Origin: Mucilaginibacter tolerans
Lineage (GTDB): Bacteria > Bacteroidota > Bacteroidia > Sphingobacteriales > Sphingobacteriaceae
Length of the DNA stretch: 64,000 bases
Assembly: GCF_030519375.1 (NCBI RefSeq)
Contig: NZ_JAUMKB010000005.1
Coordinates: forward strand, 186,001-250,000
Reading direction: 5' to 3'
Under the pieces are notes generated by a model, which saw nothing but the letters and a program-made list of their open reading frames with translations, had not been told where the DNA came from and searched no databases. Made by a program: the position numbers and the translations under genes. Positions 16,352 to 61,924 of the stretch are shown piece after piece; the first letter of the stretch is position 1; each line of letters starts with the position of its first letter.

Positions 16352-17437
16352 TTAATATACTTTCACCATAAACACATATGGCTTAATCTTTTTAACCTGT
16401 TGCTGACGGGTAAGATTAGCTAAAGTGTTCTCTGTGTTTAAAACAGGAATTTTGGTCAGCGAATCTTCCGGGATGTTTTTAATCGCATTCAATAAGTAAC
16501 CCGATTTAAGTGCAAAATGCACCCCTTCCAAACGGGTTTCTTTAGCCTTTACTATACCTATCACATTTCCTTTGCTATCCAGCAATGGGCCGCCACTATT
16601 TCCCGGGTTGATCGGAACCGATATTTCATAATCCAGCGTATCACCGTTCAAACCGTTCGCTGAAGTTAGCCTGCCATCGCCATACACAGGAGAATCCTGT
16701 GGAAAGCCAAAGGTGAACACATTTTCAGCTAAATCACTCTCTGAACGTTTAAAGGTATAAGGGACTTGTCCCAGGTTTTTGAACGAACTGTCAACCACCT
16801 TTAAGATAGATACATCACTTTGCGGATCATTATAAATTACTTTTACTTTATATGATCTTCCGGCAACATCCTGAACGTATACAGAATCGGCCCCGCTGAT
16901 TACGTGATAACTTGTTGCAATCAGTCCATTCGAAGTAATTGCAAATCCGGTACCACGGTATTTATCTGACGGCAATGGCCTTTGAGCCGACTTGATATCA
17001 TTAATGGATTTGATGATCTTTTTGTTTGAGTTATTCAGGATATCAACCTTCCGCCCCAACTCAGTATACGAATTATTGTTATTTAAATAGCCGGAAAAAA
17101 ACAGGGTAGCTAATACCGCAATAATAGCGATAGAAGCAGCCACCGATATTTTTGAATGATGGTGCCTCCACAATTGCACTATCCACGACGGATGAGCGGT
17201 TACCTCGTCGGCTATTGCATGTACGTCTATCTCCTGATGGATGGCATTCAAACGTTTTTCAAGCGCTACCCGCTCACCATATTGCCTTAACAACGCAGTG
17301 AATTGCTGGTGTTCAACAACACGGCTGTCAATTTCAGCGTTCTCACGGCGAAGTTGCTCAAACGCATTACGCTCTTCGGCGGTCATCTCGCCATTGAGGT
17401 AGCGTTCAATTGCTTCTATAAGTTGCTCGTCTCTCAT
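16352..17437 (-). CDS. Membrane-anchored anti-sigma-like/trypsin-like serine protease fusion
   Basis: 361 residues in three parts. Residues 1-95 are charged and helical, begin with IEAIERYLNGEMTAEERNAF, a pattern of Bacteroidota anti-sigma N-termini, and should be cytosolic. Residues 98-118 form one transmembrane helix. Residues 155-320 are a periplasmic trypsin-like (S1C, Do/HtrA-like) domain: GTGFAITSNGLIATSYHVI with His178, DPQSDVSILKV with Asp208, and PINPGNSGGPLL with Ser281, so the catalytic triad is intact. No PDZ domain follows. It lies 12 bp after the ECF sigma gene in the same operon. The likely role is to hold the sigma factor inside the cell and sense or degrade envelope substrates outside; this is inference. 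Confidence 0.85.
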   Translation of the reverse strand: MRDEQLIEAIERYLNGEMTAEERNAFEQLRRENAEIDSRVVEHQQFTALLRQYGERVALEKRLNAIHQEIDVHAIADEVTAHPSWIVQLWRHHHSKISVAASIAIIAVLATLFFSGYLNNNNSYTELGRKVDILNNSNKKIIKSINDIKSAQRPLPSDKYRGTGFAITSNGLIATSYHVISGADSVYVQDVAGRSYKVKVIYNDPQSDVSILKVVDSSFKNLGQVPYTFKRSESDLAENVFTFGFPQDSPVYGDGRLTSANGLNGDTLDYEISVPINPGNSGGPLLDSKGNVIGIVKAKETRLEGVHFALKSGYLLNAIKNIPEDSLTKIPVLNTENTLANLTRQQQVKKIKPYVFMVKVY

Positions 17438-17449
17438 TTCTTTGCTCCT

Positions 17450-18019
17450 TTATTTCTGCTGAAAAAATAACTTCTTCAGCCTTTGCAGGCATTTATATTT
17501 CTGTGTTTTGGCATTATCCGCATTGGTATAACCAAAACTCTCACAGATCTCCTGCATCGATCTGTTGTGGATATAAAAATCCTCTATGATAGTTTTGCAA
17601 GGTTCGCCCAGCAGCTGCAGGGCACTTTGCATTTTAGTAAACTGAATATCCCGTTCTCCCTGCTCTTCTACTTCACTCTCTACGGGCAAGTGCTCATGAA
17701 AATCATGAATATCGCCACCGTATCGGTTCATCTGGCTCAGTCTTTTTAACCAAAGCCGCCTGCAAACCGAATAAATAAATGTCTTTAGCTTGCTGTTAAG
17801 CTCAAAATCACCTTTTTTTACTTTATTATAAAGAACAATGATCGCCTCCTGGTATATATCCTTCGCGTCGTCCGGCGTTCCGTTGTTATTTAGTATCAGC
17901 TGCATCACCATCGGAAAATAGGCTACATACAGCCTTCTTATCGCATTTTCCGAGTTATTTAGGATCCCAAAAACAATCTCGCTGTCGGTTGGTATTGAAC
18001 TCTTTGATTCTGTATTCAC
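17450..18019 (-). CDS. ECF-type RNA polymerase sigma factor
   Basis: 189 residues. Region 2 spans about 25-95 (LYVAYFPMVMQLIL, DDAKDIYQEAIIVLYNKV, SKLKTFIYSVCRRLWLKRL) and region 4 about 125-185 (LLGEPCKTIIEDFYIHNRSMQEICESFGYTN, then a basic recognition-helix segment). The linker is acidic. The start codon is GTG at 18019 with no ATG before codon 37. A promoter-like element shared with the neighbouring lipoprotein genes lies immediately upstream, which points to self-activation. Operon with the membrane protease. Confidence 0.9.
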   Translation of the reverse strand: MNTESKSSIPTDSEIVFGILNNSENAIRRLYVAYFPMVMQLILNNNGTPDDAKDIYQEAIIVLYNKVKKGDFELNSKLKTFIYSVCRRLWLKRLSQMNRYGGDIHDFHEHLPVESEVEEQGERDIQFTKMQSALQLLGEPCKTIIEDFYIHNRSMQEICESFGYTNADNAKTQKYKCLQRLKKLFFQQK

Positions 18020-18020
18020 T

Positions 18021-18050
18021 ATTAATACTATTTAAGCGAAATTGTAACCC
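18021..18050 (-). promoter_or_regulatory. Candidate sigma-dependent promoter of the sigma gene (autoregulatory)
   Basis: Read on the minus strand: GGGTTAC (18050-18044), 15 bp, then GTATTAAT (18028-18021). The same -35/-10-like pair with the same spacing precedes the lipoprotein genes at 18863 and 19224, and with 16 bp the one at 18478. The -10 part ends two bases before the annotated GTG, so either the transcript is nearly leaderless or translation begins further in. Confidence 0.7.
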
Positions 18051-18154
18051 ATTAATTGCAAATTATTTAAAAACAAATTTAAAAGTATTGCCGTTATCTG
18101 CTTGTGCTCAACATACCATTTTTAATTCAATCCATTAAATAATTCATCATCAAC

Positions 18155-18349
18155 ATGAAAAACATTAGTAAATTAACTTTAGCCGTCCTGATTACCGGTT
18201 CATTTGCCGCTTGTAAAGGCACCCATTCAACCAGCACTACCGATACCACCAAGGTAGTCGATTCAACTAAAACAACCGTGGTTGATACAACCAAAAAAGC
18301 TCCGATGACAACAGATACAACTAAAAAGGATACGACCAAAAAGCCGTAA
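18155..18349 (+). CDS. Small Thr/Lys-rich lipoprotein 1 of a tandem array
   Basis: 64 residues. Signal peptide with lipobox GSFAAC; the lipidated residue would be Cys20. The mature part is a low-complexity run of D-T-T-K and D-S-T-K units ending TTKKP. No enzyme motif. It is divergent from the sigma factor gene and paralogous to the next three genes. Its upstream region has only a degraded version of the shared promoter element (CCGTTAT, 15 bp, ATACCATT near 18091-18119), so its regulation may differ. Confidence 0.75.
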   Translation: MKNISKLTLAVLITGSFAACKGTHSTSTTDTTKVVDSTKTTVVDTTKKAPMTTDTTKKDTTKKP

Positions 18350-18378
18350 TGTTTGAGCTATTAATTCTGTTCGATCGT

Positions 18379-18412
18379 AAAAGGTAACCCGTTTCTGGGC
18401 TGCCTTTTTTTA
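18379..18412 (+). terminator. Terminator of lipoprotein gene 1
   Basis: GG-taa-CCC and GGG-ctg-CC pair with a 3x3 internal loop (18383-18404), followed by a T-run. Part of this stem (GGTAACCC) is also the complement of the array's promoter -35 element. Confidence 0.6.
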
Positions 18413-18424
18413 TATTTTTTTGCC

Positions 18425-18455
18425 GGGTTACCTTTCCTGATTTTGCTGTATCAAT
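18425..18455 (+). promoter_or_regulatory. Shared promoter element, copy before lipoprotein 2
   Basis: GGGTTAC at 18425-18431, 16 bp, GTATCAAT at 18448-18455. The predicted start of transcription is about 18 nt before the ATG at 18478. Confidence 0.7.
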
Positions 18456-18477
18456 GCAAAACTTTAAACATTAAATC

Positions 18478-18684
18478 ATGAAAACATCATTAAAAATCGG
18501 GGTACTGGCAGTGGCATTTATGTTCTCAATTTCCTCATGTTCATCATGCGTGAGTAAAAACAAAAGCGGCTCGGAAGAAAAAATAGACACTCCTAAAACG
18601 ACAATCGATACGACCCAAAAAACAATAGATACAACCGGCAGAGCCGGGAGAGAACCGGTAAAGAAAGATAGTTTGAAAAAATAG
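18478..18684 (+). CDS. Small Thr/Lys-rich lipoprotein 2 of a tandem array
   Basis: 68 residues. Signal peptide with lipobox-like FSISSC (Cys21) and a second Cys three residues on. The mature part is hydrophilic with DTTQKTIDTT units and ends KKDSLKK. It is the most divergent of the four paralogues. It has its own upstream GGGTTAC/GTATC element and its own terminator. Confidence 0.75.
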   Translation: MKTSLKIGVLAVAFMFSISSCSSCVSKNKSGSEEKIDTPKTTIDTTQKTIDTTGRAGREPVKKDSLKK

Positions 18685-18713
18685 CAACCAATTTAAATAC
18701 GTGTTATAGTTTG

Positions 18714-18749
18714 GGGGTGGTTCCACAGCAGCGGGCTGCCCCTTTTTAT
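18714..18749 (+). terminator. Terminator of lipoprotein gene 2
   Basis: GGGGTGG (18714-18720) pairs with CTGCCCC (18736-18742), with two wobble pairs, followed by five T residues. Confidence 0.7.
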
Positions 18750-18808
18750 TGTTACCCCGGATATTTTATCAATCTGACAAATAATTTAATATTTTTTTAA
18801 AAAATGTA

Positions 18809-18838
18809 GGGTTACCTTTTCTGATTTGCTGTATTAAT
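18809..18838 (+). promoter_or_regulatory. Shared promoter element, copy before lipoprotein 3
   Basis: GGGTTAC at 18809-18815, 15 bp, GTATTAAT at 18831-18838. The ATG is 54 bp after the start of the element, as in copy 2 (53 bp). Confidence 0.72.
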
Positions 18839-18862
18839 GCTAAACATTAAACAAACTTTAAC

Positions 18863-19063
18863 ATGAAAAATTCGTTCAAAATTGGTTTCTTAGCTCTTGC
18901 TATCGCTGTTTCTGCTGCTGCTTGCAAAGGTAGCTCATCTGCTTCATCTGCTGACTCAGCTAAAGCTGATACTGCAAAACCTGCTGCTGTAGATACTGCT
19001 AAAAAAGACACTACTAAAGCTGCTGTTGACACTGCAAAAAAAGACACTACTAAAAAGAAATAA
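18863..19063 (+). CDS. Small Ala/Thr/Lys-rich lipoprotein 3 of a tandem array
   Basis: 66 residues. Signal peptide MKNSFKIGFLALAIAVSAAAC with lipobox Cys21. The mature part is built of D-T/S-A/T-K units (ADSAK, ADTAK, VDTAKKDTTK twice) and ends TTKKK. Codon use is strongly biased (nearly all Ala as GCT, Thr as ACT), as in abundantly expressed proteins. The first 23 residues are identical to lipoprotein 4. The terminal lysines recall peptidoglycan-linked lipoproteins, but no such link is shown. Confidence 0.8.
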   Translation: MKNSFKIGFLALAIAVSAAACKGSSSASSADSAKADTAKPAAVDTAKKDTTKAAVDTAKKDTTKKK

Positions 19064-19071
19064 TTTCTGAA

Positions 19072-19115
19072 CAGTACTAATTCATTTTAGTTTCTGTACT
19101 GATTATTAGTTTTTT
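19072..19115 (+). terminator. Terminator of lipoprotein gene 3
   Basis: CAGTAC (19072-19077) can pair with GTACTG (19096-19101), or ACTAAT with ATTAGT just before a run of T residues at 19110-19115. Confidence 0.5.
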
Positions 19116-19156
19116 ATACTTTTTTTGAAGGTAATCTATAATTTTTTGAAAATTAC

Positions 19157-19186
19157 GGGTTACCTTTTTTCATTTATGGTATTAAT
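19157..19186 (+). promoter_or_regulatory. Shared promoter element, copy before lipoprotein 4
   Basis: GGGTTAC at 19157-19163, 15 bp, GTATTAAT at 19179-19186, 67 bp before the ATG at 19224. Confidence 0.72.
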
Positions 19187-19223: not shown

Positions 19224-19448
19224 ATGAAAAATTCATTCAAAATCGGTTTCTTAGCTTTAGCTATCGCTGTTTCTGCTGCTGCTTGTAAAGGTAAAGGTGG
19301 TTCAGGATCTGCTGACTCTGCTAAGATGGCTGACTCAGCGAAAATGGCTGACTCAGCGAAAATGGCTACAGACACTGCTAAAAAAGACACTAGCAAAATG
19401 AAAATGTCTGCTGACACCACTAAAAAAGACACTACTAAAAAGAAATAA
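19224..19448 (+). CDS. Small Ala/Thr/Lys-rich lipoprotein 4 of a tandem array
   Basis: 74 residues. The start at 19224 is chosen because it begins the same signal peptide as lipoprotein 3; the frame extends to 19125 but that would place the start before the promoter element. Lipobox SAAAC, Cys21. The mature part holds three tandem ADSAKM repeats (two encoded by identical 18-bp units) and then DTAKKDTSK and DTTKKDTTKKK. Codon bias is strong. It is followed by a strong terminator. Confidence 0.8.
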   Translation: MKNSFKIGFLALAIAVSAAACKGKGGSGSADSAKMADSAKMADSAKMATDTAKKDTSKMKMSADTTKKDTTKKK

Positions 19449-39666: not shown

Positions 39667-40788
39667 TTATACTCTGATGTATATTTTCTTTTTGTCTAAA
39701 ACATAGCCTACCAGCCAGCAAACCAGCATAAAACTAATCGCAAATAACAACGAGCCTATTTTGCCGGGCGCAATTGCCTGAAAAGCTGAAGTCCACATAG
39801 CAGGCAATACTTTGCCTCCTACTGAAATCCATGCCAGCATAATGAGCAGTATTTCAGAAAGTACGTATATAGGCAATGGATTTTTCCCTACAACCGTAAA
39901 GAAATTTGCCCAGTTACCTTTATTCCAGCTCTTTACTTCTAAAGCATACAACAGGAATGATATAATAACCAGATCAAGGCCCGTAGTTACGAATACAAAT
40001 GAACTGGTCCATAGTTTTTTGTTCATCGGAAATGCCGGATCCCAGCAAATAGCGATGAATATAAACAAACAACCGGTGAGTAAAAGCTTTGATATCGTCT
40101 CGTAACCCTTGCCTTTTTCCTGAATAAACTTACCAGCATAATAACCAATAATTACATTCACAATAGCCGGTAGGGTACTTAAAAAGCCTTCCGGTTCAAA
40201 TGCTATGCCTTCTCCATGATACATGTGAGCATCGCCTAATATCCATTTATCTAAATAAAATCCTGCATTCCCGGTCATTGTCAGTTGCGCGCCCTGATCG
40301 CCAAAAACAAGCAGTATTATCCAATAACCCAGTAATAACAATCCGGATAAAACATAAACTGTACGCGTTGATAAGTAATGAATCATCAGCGAAGCAAAGC
40401 AATAGCATAAAGCTATACGCTGCAATACCCCAACGATACGTGTATGCGATATTGGGGCCAACGACCATTGGCCATGATCTATCTTGAAAAATGGGAACCA
40501 ATACATCAGGTAGCCTATCATGAAGATCAGGAAAGTTCTTTTGAAGATCTTCAACAGTACCGCAGAATTATCCATTTGTTGAAACTTCTTCATTGTAAAG
40601 CTCATCGCATTACCTACAGCAAAAAGGAAGGAAGGGAAAACCAGGTCAGTTGGTGTAAAGCCGTTCCATTTAGCATGGTTGAGTGGCCAAAAGGCTTCGC
40701 CCCCTGGGTTATTGACAATAATCATGAAACAAATAGTCAAACCACGGAATACATCCAGGGACAAAAATCTAGGAGAAGTTTCGGCCAT
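39667..40788 (-). CDS. HGSNAT-like/DUF5009 membrane acyltransferase (paralogue 1)
   Basis: 373 residues with about eleven membrane helices. N-terminal SPRFLSLDVFRGLTICFMIIVNNPGG and an early Arg-Gly pair are typical of the heparan-alpha-glucosaminide N-acetyltransferase-like family, which moves acetyl groups across a membrane onto terminal glucosamine. The start at 40788 is used; one at 40833 would add a poorly matching 15 residues. It is paralogous to the gene at 58532-59689, but stands alone here. Substrate inferred by family only. Confidence 0.85.
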   Translation of the reverse strand: MAETSPRFLSLDVFRGLTICFMIIVNNPGGEAFWPLNHAKWNGFTPTDLVFPSFLFAVGNAMSFTMKKFQQMDNSAVLLKIFKRTFLIFMIGYLMYWFPFFKIDHGQWSLAPISHTRIVGVLQRIALCYCFASLMIHYLSTRTVYVLSGLLLLGYWIILLVFGDQGAQLTMTGNAGFYLDKWILGDAHMYHGEGIAFEPEGFLSTLPAIVNVIIGYYAGKFIQEKGKGYETISKLLLTGCLFIFIAICWDPAFPMNKKLWTSSFVFVTTGLDLVIISFLLYALEVKSWNKGNWANFFTVVGKNPLPIYVLSEILLIMLAWISVGGKVLPAMWTSAFQAIAPGKIGSLLFAISFMLVCWLVGYVLDKKKIYIRV

Positions 40789-59698: not shown

Positions 59699-61924
59699 TT
59701 AGTTTTCATAGGCAGCACCTATTACCGTGCGGTATTTTTTATAAATAGCCTGGCATTCGGGAATGCTATTACCAACCGTAATAACAGGATAATTTTTATG
59801 ACCATTTACCCATTCCCATTCCCAATGCCTGATCGTATTGTCAAATGCTTTCACATCGACTTCCTTCCCCGCTTTCATCGCTCCCCTCACGTCAACAAAA
59901 AACTTTTCCCATCGAACCTTATAAAAATCATTCAATAAACCACTCCACTGCCTGCACGAATACTCATGCAACGGGCTGTTCTCATCGCCCCATAAGGTGA
60001 TCAGATCGCGGGCATTGCGTTCATAAATATCTTGTTCGTCTTTATTAATGCCCTGTTTGCGTGCATCTGCAATCCACGTCCCTAATAAGAAGTCCTTACG
60101 GGTAGCTAGTAGTCTATCCATATCACTTATTAAATCAAGAAACTGGCCGCTGTATTTATTAAAGGCTGCTATATTTTTTTGCCGGTAGGCATCAACCCAC
60201 CTCTTTTGCAATGGCAAGGCATAATTAGCCAATGCTTGCCTGGTAACATCCACCAGGTCGTATCTAAAACCATCGCTATTTTTACTTAATGGAATAGCGC
60301 TGATCATAGCATCCCACGCAGGCAGGAAATCTCTCGGCTTATAATTAAAAGTAGTATGCGTCCAAACAGTGTTGGAATCTAATGTAGGCCGGCCGGTAAC
60401 GATCGACTCAGATCCATCTCTTATGATCGATCCGCCGCTGTAAACTGTTTTCCGCAATACGTTCCAAGCTTCTGTGGTATATTTATTAATAGTACCATAG
60501 CGGTTCAACTGGTATTGTTTTATCCAGTCATCCAAATTAATGGGCTCGGTTTGCCAAGTGTTTGCTGTCATCAACTCATAAAGTACCGGATTTTGCTCAA
60601 TGGCTTCCATAGTAAGGCCTATGCCTTCCATTTTTTTTGAGGCCGGATCTTTCAGCGCATTTGCAGGACCATCCGCCACACCGTTCATTCGACCAAACAT
60701 CACGATATTACCGCCAAAATTGTGCAGCATGTTCCATATCCAGGGTTTGCCGTAGAAGGCCTCTGTTCGTTTCCAAACGGGCTGTATTTCAGCAGCCAGA
60801 TCAAGTACGATCATACGATCATCGGGCACCGCATTCAACAGTGCTTTTACCTGTGGCTGTTTCCAGAATTTGCGGTCGCTATAAAAAAGCCAGCCCTGCA
60901 TCACCCAGATTCCCTTTTTATCGGCAATATTTATAGCTTGGTATACACGATTGCCTAAAGCCGATAAGTAAGTGGTGTCGTCTGTCGGCGGCTCATTCTC
61001 GTTGAACGTATCTGCAGAGTACAAATGATCTGTTCCGTATAATTTTGTCTGCTCTTCAATAAACTTTTGGCCTATTTTGGCGAACATGGGATCTTCTGTA
61101 TCTAACAGATAAGTATCATTAAAACCATTGTGCCAATTGGTCTTTTTCAGTTTTGAATCAGGAAAATATTTTGAAAACGATGCAGGCACATGCCCTGTAA
61201 ATGATTGCAGGATAGGCCTCATGCCCAGTTCTCTTTGGCGCTTCAATATTTTTTGCTGCAAATCGCGATGACTCTCCATCCAGTTTAGGGGCAATGGGCC
61301 GCCCCATCCATCCAAGTTGCCCATCCAAAACCAGGCAAAATACGCCGGGCCGCAGAAGAAACTTTTCAGATCTTCGTCGCTAAAGCCCATGTTTTTATAA
61401 ACCTTGTACCAGGTATATTCCTGTCCGGTAAGTGCAAGCGGCATATTAATGCCATGCATGGCCATCCAGTCAATTTCTTTTTGCCAGCGGTCCCAACCCC
61501 ACCAGCTCATGCTGTAATTGTAAGTACAATAATTCAGATAATAGCGATACGTGTAGGGCGTTGCCTTATGAATCTTCCGGGTTACAACCGGTAATTTTTG
61601 GGGTAATTTCAGGTTGGTACCGTTCCATGTCACCTGGCAATGGCAATATTGATTCAGATAATAATACAGGGCCGAAGCTATGGCAACACCGTTGTTACCC
61701 CGCAAAATGATCTTACTGCCCCTGCTTTCAACTTCAAATGCGTCTTTACCATCTGTATGAAGCTGTTCAATTGCGAAAGCGGCCGCATGCTGTGGAATTA
61801 TCCTTTTTATAAGCGCATAAGAAGCTTCCTTGTTTACCTGGGCATATAATGGGTTGATCGTTAACATCGCACATGACAACATCAAACCAAACAGGAAACA
61901 ACGGGATAGCACAGTTTTTTTCAT
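59699..61924 (-). CDS. Alpha-N-acetylglucosaminidase, family GH89
   Basis: 741 residues. Signal peptide (about 1-28), N-terminal small domain, then the TIM barrel with RYYLNYCTYNYSMSWWGWDRWQKEIDWMAMHGINMPLALTGQE region, NTFNENEPPTD (catalytic Glu) and WIWNMLHNFGGNIVMFG, and an all-helical C-terminal domain. It removes terminal alpha-linked GlcNAc. Human NAGLU is the same family. Part of a PUL with SusC/SusD. Confidence 0.95.
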   Translation of the reverse strand: MKKTVLSRCFLFGLMLSCAMLTINPLYAQVNKEASYALIKRIIPQHAAAFAIEQLHTDGKDAFEVESRGSKIILRGNNGVAIASALYYYLNQYCHCQVTWNGTNLKLPQKLPVVTRKIHKATPYTYRYYLNYCTYNYSMSWWGWDRWQKEIDWMAMHGINMPLALTGQEYTWYKVYKNMGFSDEDLKSFFCGPAYFAWFWMGNLDGWGGPLPLNWMESHRDLQQKILKRQRELGMRPILQSFTGHVPASFSKYFPDSKLKKTNWHNGFNDTYLLDTEDPMFAKIGQKFIEEQTKLYGTDHLYSADTFNENEPPTDDTTYLSALGNRVYQAINIADKKGIWVMQGWLFYSDRKFWKQPQVKALLNAVPDDRMIVLDLAAEIQPVWKRTEAFYGKPWIWNMLHNFGGNIVMFGRMNGVADGPANALKDPASKKMEGIGLTMEAIEQNPVLYELMTANTWQTEPINLDDWIKQYQLNRYGTINKYTTEAWNVLRKTVYSGGSIIRDGSESIVTGRPTLDSNTVWTHTTFNYKPRDFLPAWDAMISAIPLSKNSDGFRYDLVDVTRQALANYALPLQKRWVDAYRQKNIAAFNKYSGQFLDLISDMDRLLATRKDFLLGTWIADARKQGINKDEQDIYERNARDLITLWGDENSPLHEYSCRQWSGLLNDFYKVRWEKFFVDVRGAMKAGKEVDVKAFDNTIRHWEWEWVNGHKNYPVITVGNSIPECQAIYKKYRTVIGAAYEN

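Follow-up and report, generated by a model that had tools for sequence, protein, structure and literature searches.

A conserved two-block motif as the predicted autoregulated promoter of an ECF sigma factor and nearby lipoprotein genes in Mucilaginibacter

In E. coli, the ECF sigma factor RpoE works with positive feedback, a membrane anti-sigma factor (RseA), and an HtrA-family protease (DegS) that starts its activation, and its targets belong to the cell envelope (PMC8103513). An ECF sigma factor is likewise joined to a membrane anti-sigma factor in the AlgU/MucA/MucD system of P. aeruginosa and in the SigW/RsiW pair of B. subtilis, and RsgI9 of C. thermocellum (PDB 7sjy), a transmembrane anti-sigma factor, carries an extramembrane S1C (HtrA-like) domain. 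Among the Bacteroidota, ECF promoters have been described for F. psychrophilum SM6, whose targets include a sigma/anti-sigma pair, and for P. gingivalis SigP (PMC9723704, PMC4800418). A class I anti-sigma neighbour has been recognised for no more than about 6% of the ECF sigma factors of Bacteroidetes (PMC7406223), and the locus described here is a concrete candidate for the way in which the others may be controlled. Predicted counterparts of the RpoE, RseA, and DegS features listed above are found in it from sequence alone.

The window, that is, the whole stretch of DNA analysed, comprises 64,000 nt of the soil bacterium Mucilaginibacter tolerans (contig NZ_JAUMKB010000005.1, positions 186,001–250,000, forward strand; assembly GCF_030519375.1) and belongs to a genome of 5.2 Mb; the nearest relatives of the locus are found in Mucilaginibacter. 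The sigma factor gene (17450–18019, minus strand) has a GTG start and encodes a protein of 189 aa in which TIGR02937 (sigma70-ECF, E=7.6e-19) spans residues 26–183 and Pfam finds region 2 (Sigma70_r2, E=3e-8), so that the protein has the make-up of an ECF sigma factor, with regions 2 and 4, without regions 1 and 3, and a length of about 190 aa. The partner gene (16352–17437, minus strand; 361 aa) lies 12 bp downstream. Four genes for small lipoproteins point away from this pair on the plus strand: lipoprotein 1 (18155–18349, 64 aa), lipoprotein 2 (18478–18684, 68 aa), lipoprotein 3 (18863–19063, 66 aa), and lipoprotein 4 (19224–19448, 74 aa; the start at 19224 was preferred over a longer TTG ORF). 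Genes 2–4 and their upstream stretches are mutually similar. Lipoproteins 2 and 3 show a weak PG1828_fam_lipo match, and all four proteins score 20–29 bits against the PG1828 family lipoprotein model (NF050142), under its curated cut-off of 50 bits.

The earlier note on this DNA had located four copies of the motif GGGTTAC-N15/16-GTATYAAT and read them as an ECF promoter through which the sigma factor activates itself and an adjacent gene array. All four are exact, have the spacers reported (15, 16, 15, and 15 bp), and are the only ones in the window. The predicted promoter of the sigma/partner operon (18021–18050, minus strand) has a 15-bp spacer, and the GTG start follows one base after GTATTAAT. 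On the plus strand, the predicted promoters of lipoproteins 2, 3, and 4 lie at 18425–18455 (16-bp spacer; ATG 22 nt downstream), 18809–18838 (15-bp spacer; ATG 24 nt downstream), and 19157–19186 (15-bp spacer; ATG 37 nt downstream). Lipoprotein 1, upstream of which the window scan found no motif, is therefore placed outside the predicted regulon. Dinucleotide shuffles of the window gave no match in 100 runs. Two further GGGTTAC words were said to lack a proper second block: the one near 40102 is followed by a degenerate second block only, and in the window scan no site with up to three mismatches starts at the one near 61579.

The genome-wide search that the earlier note proposed returned five copies in 5.2 Mb, against 0.13 per genome expected from an estimate based on base composition, and none for the reversed pattern. 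The fifth copy lies 25 nt before the gene for a 284-aa DUF4349 lipoprotein, and the motif stands at a single sigma gene of the genome. The relaxed pattern GGGTTAC-N15/16-GTAT matched the genome 10 times against 8 in the control, so its five additional matches are not trusted, and genome scans with two mismatches gave about as many matches as their controls, with no credible additions beyond the window copy. A one-mismatch copy that the earlier note did not mention, GGGTTAC-N16-GAATTAAT, occupies 18360–18390 on the minus strand and is directed antisense into lipoprotein 1. It overlaps the terminator hairpin of that gene (~18379–18408, AAAGGTAACCC...GGGCTGCCTTT); its GAATTAA block is shared by the window with L066, L067, and L068, the closest relatives only, and among the other relatives examined it was seen in none except L257, which is the same locus as L066. 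This copy is probably a by-product of the terminator, and it may be a weak antisense promoter.

Conservation was assessed on 80 sigma orthologs picked by protein and not by motif, with 801 kb of surrounding loci. GGGTTAC-N15/16-GTATTAA precedes the sigma gene in every one of them, with a spacer of 15 bp in 59 and 16 bp in 21. In the ortholog alignment, where the search pattern set the blocks and only the flanks and spacer could vary, T is preferred immediately 5' of GGGTTAC and A-T-T after the variable base that follows it, while the remaining spacer is largely free or merely A/T-rich. The sigma loci contain 237 sites against 0 for the full reversed pattern, which was used as the control; the word CATTGGG is unsuitable for this, being contaminated by the conserved CATTGGGTTAC context. 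Chance occurrence at non-promoter places, which the earlier note named as grounds for giving up its reading, is not borne out, as 87% of these sites have an ORF start no more than 60 nt downstream, compared with 22% of random positions under the same rule; about 13% of the sites are not near an ORF start by this rule. The motif stands on the coding strand throughout, near start codons, and from its sequence pattern it is directional, bipartite, and non-palindromic, with ECF-like spacing.

Across 101 genomes of the genus, 149 motif sites were counted against 13 for the backward pattern (a manual sum), and an ORF starts within 60 nt of 91 of the 104 distinct sites. By a rough assignment rule combined with reading of the list, 38 distinct sites precede small lipoproteins, about 34 precede DUF4349-type lipoproteins (one protein tested against Pfam, the others assigned by resemblance), and nine precede the sigma gene itself. 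Most of the remaining sites belong to genes for short membrane proteins; DUF2459, DUF4294, and MscS-like genes account for one each. The theme of the predicted regulon is the cell envelope. Some species carry two tandem copies, ~150–215 bp apart, before one DUF4349-type lipoprotein gene (L233, L210, L033). In several genomes of the genus (L013, L022, L214, L229), a well-conserved copy (GGGTTACTTTTTAACATTGGGGGTATTAAT and near-identical forms) has no clear ORF after it and might be the promoter of a small RNA or of a short gene missing from the annotation. The MscS-like mechanosensitive channel gene, seen in one genome (L247), has the motif 176 nt upstream.

The motif and the sigma system also occur together. 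Among 151 genomes of the family, a looser form of the motif is present in 134 of the 136 that have the sigma factor and in 3 of the 15 that do not (P=2e-13), and among 296 genomes of the phylum it is present in 18 of 21 with a full-length partner gene and in 3 of 275 without one (P=6e-23); both P values assume independent genomes, which these are not, so the direction of the association is clear and its exact size is not. In the two family genomes that have the sigma factor but not the exact motif, AGGTTAC, one base off, stands in the right place. Of the three sigma-negative family genomes with the motif, two are assemblies of limited completeness (87% and 77%); one of these two has its site before a DUF4294 gene, a kind of gene that also carries the motif in one Mucilaginibacter genome. 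Relatives from four families (f1, f2, f9, f10) have the partner gene next to the sigma gene; in the last three, families of the same class, nearly every such pair is accompanied by the motif or a minor variant of it, with a degenerate motif in L191, and a second GGGTTAC in the opposite orientation often lies some dozens of bases away.

An autoregulated promoter common to the regulon is typical of ECF sigma factors, though not universal, and at the level of sequence this arrangement is found in all 80 orthologs and at the linked genes. Together with the direction of the motif and its near absence from genomes without the sigma system, this supports the reading of the earlier note, and we infer, with a probability of about 0.87, that GGGTTAC-N15/16-GTATYAAT is a promoter recognised by the sigma factor encoded at 17450–18019, which would thereby regulate itself.

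A conserved two-block element could in principle also bind a dimeric regulator, in which case the motif would be the operator of an unlinked transcription factor and the genes would be read by the housekeeping sigma factor or by another ECF. The sigma gene does have a sigma-A-like box farther upstream, TAAATTTG, which could be a housekeeping promoter of that gene. However, the lack of a palindrome, the fixed direction and distance, and the overlap with the place of a core promoter do not suit an operator, the presence of the motif follows that of the sigma system from genome to genome, and no sigma-A TAnnTTTG box was found before lipoproteins 2–4 in the stretches checked; an operator is accordingly improbable. 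The constant coding-strand orientation and the closeness to start codons would also fit an element that acts at the RNA level, in a leader or as a regulatory RNA, but in 72 of the 80 orthologs it ends 0–3 nt from the sigma start codon, and the tight 15/16 spacing around a largely variable spacer is what two contact regions of a sigma factor would produce, which makes a role in RNA very improbable. That the lipoprotein genes share their upstream blocks through recent duplication, with the sigma copy a coincidence, would explain why the three genes and their upstream stretches are alike. It is scarcely credible in view of the sigma copy, which has a different spacer and is kept in every ortholog, and it is contradicted by the motif at unrelated genes of other species (DUF4349, DUF4294, DUF2459, and small membrane proteins).

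If the motif is the promoter of the sigma gene, its position bears on the start of the sigma mRNA. The first in-frame GTG or TTG follows GTATTAA by 0–3 nt in the 72 orthologs mentioned above and by 13–17 nt in the other eight. ECF transcripts usually begin several bases beyond the -10 core, so the sigma mRNA of most species is expected to start at or beside the start codon, and a leaderless sigma mRNA is predicted for most orthologs, whereas the lipoprotein genes have room for predicted leaders of roughly 15–30 nt. Leaderless mRNAs account for 5.5% in F. psychrophilum and are a minority in the phylum (PMC9723704), in which conserved leaderless initiation would thus be predicted here.

The partner protein consists of an anti-sigma-like N-terminal domain (~1–77), a membrane helix within ~85–114, and an HtrA/DegS-like domain (~160–320). 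The predicted structure of residues 1–77 has helices at 3–14, 20–32, and 34–69, with a pLDDT of ~88–94 up to residue 60 and lower values after it. In Foldseek, the top eight matches of the N-terminus are all anti-sigma chains (RsiW, RslA, MucA); each is weak by itself (best E=1.6, Z 5.5–6.3), and for this reason the domain is called only anti-sigma-like. The zf-HC2 family matches weakly in 21 of 40 partner family members (best E=0.0016), and the NCBIfam search of the domain gave weak anti-sigma matches only. Nuclear-receptor matches of the N-terminus, obtained in a profile search against solved structures, had E values of at least 0.07 and were judged to be chance. The C-terminal half matches Trypsin_2 (Pfam, E=1e-23) and the structure of DegS delta-PDZ (E=1.5e-11), and its catalytic triad H178/D208/S281 is 99% conserved in 102 partner sequences. 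Pfam finds no PDZ domain; the trypsin match ends at 295–300, and ~60 residues remain. With an anti-sigma-like N-terminus and a DegS match that retains the triad, the chain resembles RseA and DegS joined, and the partner is predicted to be a single-chain equivalent of the two, without the PDZ domain. It probably acts as an anti-sigma factor.

In the circuit that we propose, the sigma factor would activate its own operon, and with it the partner gene, as well as an envelope regulon made up of lipoproteins 2–4 and the distant DUF4349 lipoprotein, to which small membrane proteins would be added in other species. Without stress, the N-terminal domain of the partner would hold the sigma factor at the inner membrane; an envelope signal acting on the periplasmic HtrA-like domain would lead to proteolysis, and the freed sigma factor would set off positive feedback and a burst of lipoprotein synthesis. 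Activation by proteolysis is about an even bet. The fuller picture is tentative, with the odds somewhat against it: an envelope-stress circuit, widespread in the Bacteroidota, that combines sensor, site-1 protease, and anti-sigma factor in one protein (an RseA–DegS fusion, possibly self-cleaving), makes its ECF sigma factor from a leaderless mRNA with a GUG start, and switches on surface lipoproteins. With its conserved sigma factor, protease-bearing anti-sigma-like protein, sharply defined promoter, and short regulon, the locus makes these predictions testable in culturable Mucilaginibacter and Pedobacter, and it offers a candidate regulatory context for DUF4349, DUF4294, and the small lipoproteins.

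A search of open-licence papers found no description of the motif or of the fusion in Sphingobacteriales; the ECF re-classification database may have an automatic group or motif for this system. E. coli makes RseA and DegS as separate proteins, the latter with a PDZ sensor, whereas the partner is one chain without PDZ; RpoE also reads other -35/-10 sequences, and the predicted Mucilaginibacter regulon is centred on lipoproteins. The cytoplasmic domains of MucA and RsiW are the top fold matches of the partner N-terminus, and MucD is among the matches of its protease, but the AlgU/MucA/MucD and SigW/RsiW systems have separate protease and anti-sigma genes and a different regulon and promoter. 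SM6 uses a CGT -10 box and has type IX secretion targets (PMC9723704, PMC4800418), in contrast to GTATYAAT and lipoproteins here. RsgI9, which is among the structure matches of the partner, is its nearest described relative in design. RsgI9 belongs to the anti-SigI class and not to the ECF systems, has an additional NTF2 domain, and carries an S1C-like domain for which polysaccharide binding is reported (PMC12203970), whereas the partner keeps the H/D/S triad (99%). The locus would therefore represent an ECF circuit of a known kind in a variant form, with a protease-fused anti-sigma-like partner, a promoter code of its own, and a predicted leaderless sigma mRNA.
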